DNA from: a virus
Direction: 5' to 3' (one strand)
Virus record (IMG/VR): IMGVR_UViG_3300011116_000511
Location: 1 to 37,014 of that record
DNA length: 37,014 nucleotides
Made by a program: the position numbers and the translations under genes. How positions within the stretch are numbered: the first letter of the stretch is position 1; each line of letters starts with the position of its first letter. Positions 11,299-17,463 of this stretch are shown here, piece after piece. Below the pieces are notes generated by a model. That model was not told the origin of the DNA, searched no databases, and saw only the letters and a list, made by a program, of their open reading frames with translations.

Positions 11299-12438
11299 TC
11301 AGTATATCTTCCATTTCATTCCATCCACACAATTCACATCGGGATTGATACCGTAGCTTGACAAAAATAATCTTTTTTGTTCATTGCTCTCATAGTATAG
11401 ATTTATGAAGTGGTCAATGTTGTTGTTGATACTCTTTCTGCGCTTCCATTTGTCGTTAGCTGAAAGGTCTTTCGTCGCTTCATTAAATTCTTCTTTTGTC
11501 TGCGCTTTAAACTTGTTTTGTTCTGGAGTCAGTATGAAGTTCTTACCTTCCAGATAGACCACATATTCATCAACCCATTCGCTTAGATATTTCTTAGCGT
11601 AATATTCTTTTTCTTCACTTGAGTCAAAGCACAAGCAAAGAAAGTTGTCTAGACTTACATTATAGTTCTCTCTGTTACCGCGCTTCGCTAGTTGACTGAA
11701 AATCATTTCGCCATTAGTTGAGCTAATTCGCTCTGCTTTAATCCAGCACATCGCTTCGATTAGTGGAAAATTATACACGAACAAATCAAAGTCTTTAGGT
11801 GACTTTTCTTTCAGCGGAAACAAGTGCTTGTAGTTCATCACATCTTGGCTTCGCCCGAACCATTCGTAGCATCTGTTGACTGGCAAATTATTCTTATAGA
11901 TATAAGCCCATGTAAGTCTGTCTGATACATTGTAGATTGGGTACGCTTTTCGCGACTTCGGTTGCTTCCATCCAGCTTGATTGAGCATCAGTCTTCTAGT
12001 TGGACTATCATTCTGCTTTATTCCAATCAAATTAAAGTCAAAGTGTTCCAATTCATAGATAAACTTTTCGCCCGCTTTCAGCGGCAGTTCATTGTAGTAT
12101 CTCATATCAAATATCTTATTGATACATAATAAGTCAGACACTTGTAGCTTCGTGGTTATACCGCTTTCGATTCTGGTAATAACCACGCCGCGTTCTTCAT
12201 AGTAATCGTAAACTTCTTGATTGTAGCTTAAACCTTCGATAATGACTTGACTATACACAGCAGTCTTCAAATTGTTCTTAATCGCTCTATCTAACATCAT
12301 TACAGAATCTTTTCCCGTACTGAATGACAGAACATATTTTAAACTTCGGTCTAGTTGTGAGAATAAGTTATCTGAAAAGTCTAAAGTCTGTTTCAAAGAA
12401 ACTTCGTCCACAACCACACGCTCGCGTGGCAAATACAT
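11299..12438 (-). CDS. PAPS-reductase-like PP-loop protein
   Basis: A 379-residue protein of the adenine nucleotide alpha hydrolase group related to phosphoadenosine phosphosulfate reductase. The PP-loop SFSTGKDSVMM is at residues 38-48 and would bind ATP or a nucleotide; further matches include RVITRIESG-like and SPTRRLMLNQAGWKQPKSRKAYP with a conserved basic cluster. Phage relatives of this family are thought to take part in DNA or RNA sulfur or base modification rather than sulfate assimilation (inference), because no sulfate pathway genes are near. It precedes the terminase genes. The start has the AAAACATCT leader before ATG. Confidence 0.75.
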   Translation of the reverse strand: MYLPRERVVVDEVSLKQTLDFSDNLFSQLDRSLKYVLSFSTGKDSVMMLDRAIKNNLKTAVYSQVIIEGLSYNQEVYDYYEERGVVITRIESGITTKLQVSDLLCINKIFDMRYYNELPLKAGEKFIYELEHFDFNLIGIKQNDSPTRRLMLNQAGWKQPKSRKAYPIYNVSDRLTWAYIYKNNLPVNRCYEWFGRSQDVMNYKHLFPLKEKSPKDFDLFVYNFPLIEAMCWIKAERISSTNGEMIFSQLAKRGNRENYNVSLDNFLCLCFDSSEEKEYYAKKYLSEWVDEYVVYLEGKNFILTPEQNKFKAQTKEEFNEATKDLSANDKWKRRKSINNNIDHFINLYYESNEQKRLFLSSYGINPDVNCVDGMKWKIY

Positions 12439-16217: not shown

Positions 16218-16733
16218 TTATCCGATGTACTCATAGCTATAAGTCATTTTTCTTGTGCTTGTTGAGCCTTTCATTATGCCTTCGCTCTCTCCAGTTCTGC
16301 CCTTTCGCGTAACTATCCATCGCTTGTCTTTCGCTCTCTGAAAAAATAACGCCTTTGTGGAGGATGTTATGATAAATCTATTTCCCATTTTCACATACAT
16401 TTCAGCTATATGTGTTGAGAATTTATGCCCGATACCTAATCCTTGATAATCAGGCAAAACTACTAGTCGATGTCCCTTTTTAAAATTCTTTATCAGCGCG
16501 TGTGGAAAATGAAGAACGGCAAAAAAGCAAGCTGGATTGTTTTCAATGTATCCTACATAGCAATCAGCCGTTTTATTAATGTCTGAATTCATATAGTGAT
16601 ACTTTCTAAATAGCTTCCAAATTTGGGTGCTACATTTTCTAACTTCAAGCTGGAGCGTTGGTCGTTTGTTCCCTTCCTTGCAAAAAAAAACCTTTGTTCG
16701 TCTGTGTCGTAAATCCAATCTGGCTCCAACCAA
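16218..16733 (-). CDS. GNAT acetyltransferase part of a frameshift-joined ABC-GNAT protein
   Basis: The frame carries a GNAT domain: the acetyl-CoA-binding loop RLVVLPDYQGLGIG (Q-x-x-G-x-G), and FFAVLHFPHALIKNFKKGH before it. Residues from RPTLQLEVRKCS onward match the linker of COG2401 proteins, an ABC-type ATPase fused to an acetyltransferase. There is no good start: the only upstream start is TTG (16733), and the first ATG (16592, overlapping the ABC stop as ATGA) would cut off the conserved LEV...LFRKYHY segment. A -1 shift at the T9 run (16690-16682) joins it to the ABC frame; 154 residues would come from here. Confidence 0.8.
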   Translation of the reverse strand: MVGARLDLRHRRTKVFFCKEGNKRPTLQLEVRKCSTQIWKLFRKYHYMNSDINKTADCYVGYIENNPACFFAVLHFPHALIKNFKKGHRLVVLPDYQGLGIGHKFSTHIAEMYVKMGNRFIITSSTKALFFQRAKDKRWIVTRKGRTGESEGIMKGSTSTRKMTYSYEYIG

Positions 16734-17281
16734 TCAACTATGTCGCGATGGCACGCAACTGCAACGAATTGTTTATTTGTCTTGCGAACGGCTTTGCTAA
16801 TGGCATACGATGCCGTTTTTGCTACCGTACGGTCAACGACTGATGTGAATTCATCGAACACTACAACCTTATTATCTAGCAAGAGAGAGCGCGCCAAATC
16901 GACTCGCATACGCTCTCCCATAGACAAAACCGAATAGGGTTTTAACCACGACCAAATCGTGGCAAAGCCAACGCTATTGAACATATTCATTATCTCTTGA
17001 ACATCTAAGTTCTTTGGCATATTATCAATAACTGCATTGTCGTCGTACTGATAAGCGTTTATATAATCTGCACCAAATAACTCTTTAGCTATTGTAGATT
17101 TACCTGAACCAGATGAACCGACAATAATGCCAATCTGCCATGATTCGTTTTCGATTGCAATGTTTCCGTGAAACTGCTCCTGTATTTTGGAGTCTATCTG
17201 CAAATCAAATTGACCAATCACACTTTGTGTTCTGAATGTTCTTTTCAGTTCACTCTCTTTTATAATGTTAAAACTCGGCAT
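16589..17281 (-). CDS. ABC-type ATPase (COG2401-like), joined to GNAT by -1 frameshift
   Basis: A 230-residue ATPase with Walker A GSSGSGKST (residues 55-63), a signature motif LSMGERMRVDLA at 119-130 (a variant of LSGGQ), Walker B VVVFDEF at 139-145 and the H-loop histidine at 178 (ACHRD). It lacks a membrane domain, so it is a soluble ABC ATPase, not a transporter. After residue 200 (FFF at the T9 run) the zero frame continues for 30 residues without homology, while a -1 shift leads into the GNAT domain, giving a 354-residue fusion. It starts inside the upstream gene's end. The substrate of the acetyltransferase is unknown. Confidence 0.85.
   Translation of the reverse strand: MPSFNIIKESELKRTFRTQSVIGQFDLQIDSKIQEQFHGNIAIENESWQIGIIVGSSGSGKSTIAKELFGADYINAYQYDDNAVIDNMPKNLDVQEIMNMFNSVGFATIWSWLKPYSVLSMGERMRVDLARSLLLDNKVVVFDEFTSVVDRTVAKTASYAISKAVRKTNKQFVAVACHRDIVDWLEPDWIYDTDEQRFFFARKGTNDQRSSLKLENVAPKFGSYLESITI
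16682..16690 (-). promoter_or_regulatory. Slippery T9 run for -1 frameshift (ABC-GNAT)
   Basis: On the coding strand the run reads AGG TTT TTT TTT GCA in the ABC frame. Slipping back one base gives TTT TTT TTT TGC AAG, entering the GNAT frame. Nine identical bases favour either ribosomal -1 slippage or RNA polymerase slippage. Confidence 0.7.
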
Positions 17282-17463
17282 ATAAATCCTTTTTCGGTTA
17301 ATTCGTTAAACAATTGTTCTTGTTGCTTCTCGTTGTCACAAACAACCTCTAAAATATATTCTATTTTAGTTTCATTGGACAAGTCCTTTGTCTTTGTCTT
17401 CTTCACATAAACATTATCTTCATCTGATATGATTATGTTTCCAAATAAATCAGTTGTTGTCAT
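17260..17463 (-). CDS. Small phage protein, 'LF...L...G..CRVLTL' type
   Basis: A 67-residue protein. The N-terminus (TTDLFGNIIISDED) and C-terminus (VVCDNEKQQEQLFNELTEKG then FICRVLTL) follow a pattern often seen in small proteins encoded near replication genes of many phages, with a strand-helix-strand ending in C-R-V-L-T-L. Function unknown. It overlaps the gene before it by 14 bases and the ABC gene after it by 22, so it belongs to the same tightly packed unit as the ABC-GNAT gene. Confidence 0.6.
   Translation of the reverse strand: MTTTDLFGNIIISDEDNVYVKKTKTKDLSNETKIEYILEVVCDNEKQQEQLFNELTEKGFICRVLTL

Follow-up and report, generated by a model that had tools for sequence, protein, structure and literature searches.

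A dual-coded tail and differing candidate recoding signals in a phage ABC-GNAT gene family

On the minus strand of IMG/VR virus record IMGVR_UViG_3300011116_000511, whose 37 kb (37,014 nucleotides) are the window analysed here, an ABC ATPase frame runs through nine T and ends shortly afterwards, and an acetyltransferase frame continues from the same run in the −1 register. Is this locus one gene decoded in two ways, and if so, which products does selection keep? The zero-frame ORF (16589..17281, minus strand, 230 aa; PF00005, E 2.5e-10) comprises 200 codons through the end of the T run, then 30 codons and a TGA. Its Walker A (GSSGSGKST), signature (LSMGE), Walker B (VVFDE) and H-loop (CH) motifs are intact. 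The −1 frame (16218..16682, minus strand, 154 aa and a stop) reads TGC AAG GAA GGG AAC AAA CGA CCA from 16682 on, stays open to 16218, and encodes a linker and a GNAT acetyltransferase domain with an intact acetyl-CoA loop, DYQGLGIG. Its Pfam match (PF13508, E 5e-5) falls just under the cut-off, and its match to phrog_11143 has an E value of 2e-33. A −1 shift on T_TTT_TTT yields an ABC-GNAT protein of 354 aa, as the sequence-only reading had proposed, and both parts lie in order on the one-chain phrog_11143 profile (357 positions): 6–215 of the ABC ORF map to profile positions 3–206, and 20–171 of the GNAT frame to 196–350. The window locus is a member of the phrog_11143 ABC-GNAT family.

The two frames share a dual-coded overlap (16589..16681, minus strand), which reads ARKGTNDQRSSLKLENVAPKFGSYLESITI up to the stop as the ABC-frame tail and CKEGNKRPTLQLEVRKCSTQIWKLFRKYHYM as the GNAT-frame linker. 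The GNAT-frame YHY motif (16593..16601, minus strand) has a fixed position in the family, and the codon following it overlaps the tail stop. In the AF2 model of the ABC-tail product, the core has a pLDDT of about 83–97 and the tail about 52, which is low confidence. Protein searches were queried with the frames of the phage protein and of its phage relatives joined in silico. The PDB sequence and fold matches are transporter ATPase domains. An ABC transporter proper, or the annotation ‘iron siderophore transporter’, was considered and rejected, as the scanned domains are only ABC and GNAT and the gene sits in phage genomes. The AF2 model of one relative, L016, matches a protein of Leptospira phage LE4 with a TM score of 0.88.

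The junction on the minus strand of the contig reads ...GAC GAA CAA AGG TTT TTT TTT GCA AGG..., which confirms the nine T (16682..16690, minus strand) and an ABC frame ending 30 codons later. Within the run, a −1 heptamer, T_TTT_TTT, occupies 16688-16682 and is in frame with the ABC ORF. The window as a whole is not enriched in T9 runs (three found vs 9.2 expected), so that position, frame and conservation are the evidence and the run by itself is not. T_TTT_TTT occurs at the homologous place in eight relatives (L002, L005, L007, L009, L107, L215, L216 and L229), one of which, L229, has T9 there; the nearest relative of the window is about 55% identical. Most ribosomes would read the ABC frame through T9 and terminate 30 codons on, and their product would be the ATPase plus a short conserved tail. 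Some would change to the −1 frame at T_TTT_TTT and translate the GNAT domain as well, which would yield an ATPase-GNAT protein. The −1 frame could be reached by tandem tRNA slippage or on transcripts carrying one extra U from polymerase slippage. That the window locus is one gene decoded two ways, into ABC-tail and ABC-GNAT, is in our judgement highly probable; the actual shift in the window phage, and its rate, we infer from the sequence.

Neither a clear downstream structure (z 0.04) nor a well-placed upstream Shine-Dalgarno (SD) sequence was found in the window, which also has no prfB-type SD-NNN-CTT site. The T9 run must hence suffice, and ribosomal and transcriptional slippage are both possible on it. 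A shift through mixed transcripts instead of a ribosomal −1 shift, with identical products, is a serious candidate to which we give somewhat less than even weight. U9 is sufficiently long for polymerase slippage, the window is devoid of a stimulatory structure and a well-placed SD, and long runs recur in the family (T9 in L229, A10 in the in-frame class). On the other hand, the window site contains T_TTT_TTT in the right frame, and relatives in which T7, A7, G_GTT_TTT, A_AAG_GGC and SD or hairpin elements occur are consistent with a ribosomal shift.

We collected 290 loci from IMG/VR, GTDB genomes and phage records, of which 222 non-redundant ones, window included, were left once identical ABC cores had been removed. 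These are 150 relatives with a single ORF, 68 split members with the GNAT in the −1 frame (window included), three scored as +1 and one with a stop. The split members include isolated phages of Lactococcus (P335), Oenococcus, Streptococcus and Thomasclavelia, a Gilliamella prophage and an Alicyclobacillus complete genome, as well as MAG contigs filed under Spirosoma, Dojkabacteria and Bathyarchaeota, for which the binning may be wrong. A canonical X_XXY_YYZ heptamer stands in the ABC frame at the junction of 61 of the 68. Most are A_AAA_AAA or T_TTT_TTT, with A_AAG_GGC and G_GGA_AAG once each, and a further five members have G_GTT_TTT. Chance heptamers were considered and rejected as the explanation: as homopolymers also score as heptamers out of the ABC frame, the argument is based on tail conservation and, above all, on the position and frame of the GNAT. 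The codon at which the ABC frame stops is the same in all split members and falls within the YHY[LM] motif of the GNAT frame.

The relatives also bear on a homopolymer sequencing or assembly error, in which the true run would have ten (or seven) T and the gene would be one uninterrupted ORF. T9 is an error-prone context, single-ORF relatives make up 150 of the 222, and such an error may account for one relative (L156), with A8 in place of the A9 of its sisters. Yet the split layout recurs in 68 members with many slip sequences, some of them not homopolymers (G_GTT_TTT, A_AAG_GGC, G_GGA_AAG), in isolate phages and in eight prophage loci with identical ABC cores, and L229 repeats T9 at the same site. 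With T10, too, conservation of the tail frame would hold, as it does in single-ORF members. Because independent contigs and isolates share the 0/−1 layout with different slip sequences, this error is ruled out for the family, and for the window we regard it as very unlikely.

Potential stimulators vary among the split members. Among 32 representatives, predicted structures with z under −2 occur in six. One clade has GGAG 8 nt upstream, and hairpins are found in some relatives (the streptococcal group, one A_AAA_AAA clade and, by eye, L230). The L230 hairpin, GGGCGG-CATGA-CCGCCC, directly follows the putative slip, and in L012 and streptococcal relatives a CCCCAC/GTGGGG hairpin spans the overlap. 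The hairpins of L230, L012 and the streptococcal relatives are likely frameshift stimulators. The Thomasclavelia phage TR-TP2 (L015), on a long branch, is split and has a conserved tail with no recognisable slip heptamer (CTG GGG GAG). As for the three +1 members, L217 looks like a bad model hit, L156 has the above-mentioned A8, and L206 has a T9 run; the last two reflect either sequencing error or a further frame state.

Translational coupling, with termination at the TGA and restart at an overlapping ATG to give a free GNAT, is in our view very improbable. The window does have an ATGA overlap (16592-16589, with the ATG at 16590..16592, minus strand), a possible re-initiation start, and the GeneTack authors class ABC-transporter frame transitions as coupling (PMC3711429). 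This ATG is unique to the window among the 68 split members, the others having CTA, TTA, CTG or TTG. It lies downstream of the conserved RP...W..F..YHY block, so that a free GNAT would be without those residues, and the GNAT frame is conserved upstream of it. Coupling also leaves the slip heptamers unexplained. The only other candidate start of the window's GNAT frame is a TTG at 16733, in agreement with the sequence-only reading, which had listed a TTG and an ATG after the conserved start as the sole options. No ATG or GTG is present in the GNAT frame near the junction in 19 of 34 representative split members, and separate genes with clear GNAT starts, the refuting case of the sequence-only reading, were not seen among the relatives.

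We then inspected the tail frame for selection with a null that shuffles synonymous codons while keeping the GNAT amino acids and the codon usage of each gene, scored over the 22 codons before YHY in 218 members. As the sequences are related and their counts therefore not independent, the figures are to be read with this in mind: the tail frame contains no stop in the 218 members vs about 132 expected, and none in any of the three groups as first sorted (about 42, 38 and 52 expected). The third frame has no comparable shortage. Restriction to 92 tree representatives plus 12 distant phages again gives no stop vs about 55 expected, and all 12 distant phages (Gordonia, Arthrobacter, Vibrio, Pasteurella, Leptospira, Pseudomonas and others) are open in the tail frame. 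In 26 control windows of the same genes the ratio of observed to expected stops is 0.82-1.19. The tail stop falls at one fixed codon in 216 of 218 members vs about 98 expected. Substitutions at GNAT codon positions 1/2/3 are distributed as 0.41/0.18/0.42 in the overlap and as 0.18/0.13/0.69 in single-coding GNAT sequence, and the two-frame pattern in the overlap is alike in split and single-ORF groups. Amino-acid similarity of the tail between designs also exceeds a stop-free synonymous null. By comparison of the sequences, the open tail frame, the fixed stop and the two-frame substitutions show that ABC-tail and ABC-GNAT, and with them the tail, are selected across the family. That GNAT amino acids and codon bias keep the frame open as a side effect, with no tail product made, has next to no credibility, for although conserved GNAT residues dictate most tail residues, a null that keeps those amino acids and the codon usage, and is calibrated elsewhere in the same genes, expects the roughly 132 stops of which none is seen, and the tail stop, substitution pattern and tail similarity agree. 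The description of the 30 residues after the run as non-homologous was therefore mistaken, as they belong to a conserved dual-coded tail that occurs in the whole family. The comparison of relatives strongly supports the proposed programmed shift giving an ATPase alone and an ATPase-GNAT.

The single-ORF relatives have signals of their own. At the junction, 73 of the 150 have CAA AAA AAA AAT. In 67 of the 76 lacking a long A run, an SD-like hexamer is followed by three bases and CTT, a codon that makes up 13% of the Leu codons in the genes of these 76, and five more have SD-NNN-CCC_T. The prfB site has the same arrangement, an SD approaching AGGGGG with CTTT three nucleotides downstream (PMC12421855). 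In the single-ORF relatives, the base after CTT is mostly C, no in-frame TGA is present and the GNAT frame goes on; a +1 shift at SD-NNN-CTT leads into the tail frame of the split members. Judging from layout and conservation, these prfB-like +1 sites are presumably used. In the A10 design the shift could be +1, leading into the tail, or −1, leading to an early stop. The view of the single-chain relatives as plain fusions was thus rejected, as recoding signals and the conserved tail frame are present in them too, a point on which the sequence-only reading needs changing.

On a tree of 103 rows, the three designs need only five changes. The +1-type members are widespread outer groups, and the split and A10 types fall in one large clade with switches inside; the positions of L015 and L232 are unsure because of long branches. 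From these sequences, the same two products appear to be kept by differing signals, namely −1 heptamers (A, T and mixed), prfB-like +1 sites and A10. We moderately favour a reading in which interchangeable signals of opposite direction (−1 heptamers, prfB-like +1 sites, homopolymer slippage) replaced one another while the products and the dual-coded tail were kept and the default product was swapped between lineages. On this reading the tail is a functional peptide, and through it the stoichiometry or the activity of a DNA-modifying ABC-GNAT complex would be set.

Known recoded genes offer partial parallels. The dnaX products tau and gamma arise by −1 frameshifting in E. coli and by transcriptional slippage in Thermus. 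The ABC-GNAT gene resembles dnaX in being one gene for an ATPase with and without a C-terminal domain, with a slippery A/T run and a ribosomal or transcriptional route, which in dnaX depends on the species. It differs in belonging to another family, in that translation without a shift often gives the shorter product, and in conserving a tail of about 30-45 residues in the second frame. Like prfB (RF2), single-ORF relatives have the SD-like hexamer, three-base spacer and CTT (the 67 of 76). Unlike in prfB, no stop codon follows CTT in them, so that the site does not serve to sense termination, and a +1 shift would take ribosomes off the long product and into the tail. The phage tail assembly chaperone G/G-T likewise has a conserved −1 shift at XXXYYYZ that gives an extended minority protein, and L146 has the GGGAAAG motif known from phage lambda; the proteins and gene position are unrelated, and in ABC-GNAT the zero-frame tail is conserved and dual-coded. 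To our knowledge, family-wide conserved viral recoding has few examples beyond those of tail chaperones, transposases, dnaX and prfB.

Domain order and motifs are those of phrog_11143, presumably COG2401-like, ABC ATPase-GNAT proteins and of the ABC-GNAT DNA-modification pair predicted by Iyer and Aravind (cited in PMC7824862), and many members share a ParB/Srx-like neighbour. What sets the present gene apart is recoding, which the papers searched do not mention for these proteins. A term search of open-licence literature found no mention of recoding in the ABC-GNAT family in PRFect, GeneTack, the Atkins 2016 review or the BREX, Dnd and jumbo-phage papers. With at least three signal types at one junction, the family is a natural series for asking which features are held by selection (the product ratio) and which are free to drift (the mechanism). 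Recoding would also explain why annotations of Lactococcus, Oenococcus and Streptococcus phages divide the gene into ‘ABC transporter’ and ‘hypothetical’ or ‘GNAT’, and the gene provides a handle on a predicted, uncharacterised DNA-modification system.

As for function, Aravind and colleagues predicted modification of DNA bases by a GNAT that acts together with an ABC ATPase (cited in PMC7824862). Following this prediction, the likely activity would be acyl modification of DNA bases with a ParB/Srx-like partner. The analogy with dnaX tau/gamma suggests, as a likely role of recoding, a set ratio of two subunits that share the ABC dimer interface, one of them with the acyltransferase. The complex would presumably be an ABC dimer of mixed ABC-tail and ABC-GNAT subunits. 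A ParB/Srx-like gene lies directly upstream of ABC-GNAT in many relatives. In the window this place is taken by a 67-aa ORF (17260..17463, minus strand) that overlaps the ABC start by 22 nt and is homologous to the C-terminal end of that protein; a search of the window for a ParB_N domain found none, and the ORF is either a stand-alone remnant or a module. In 105 of 110 scorable loci the last 22 nt of the preceding gene, stop included, are shared with the ABC start; this is another conserved overlap, opposite to the dual-coded one. The genes after ABC-GNAT in L295 and L299 (also L291 and L297) have phosphoribosylglycinamide formyltransferase, aspartate decarboxylase or tRNA methyltransferase annotations, and possibly encode further base-modification steps. 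The ABC part of L016 (2501-3589) has a weak PADLOC match to mad3 of the MADS defence system. Elsewhere in the window, an ORF with a PAPS reductase domain (11299-12438, minus strand) adjoins the terminase gene.
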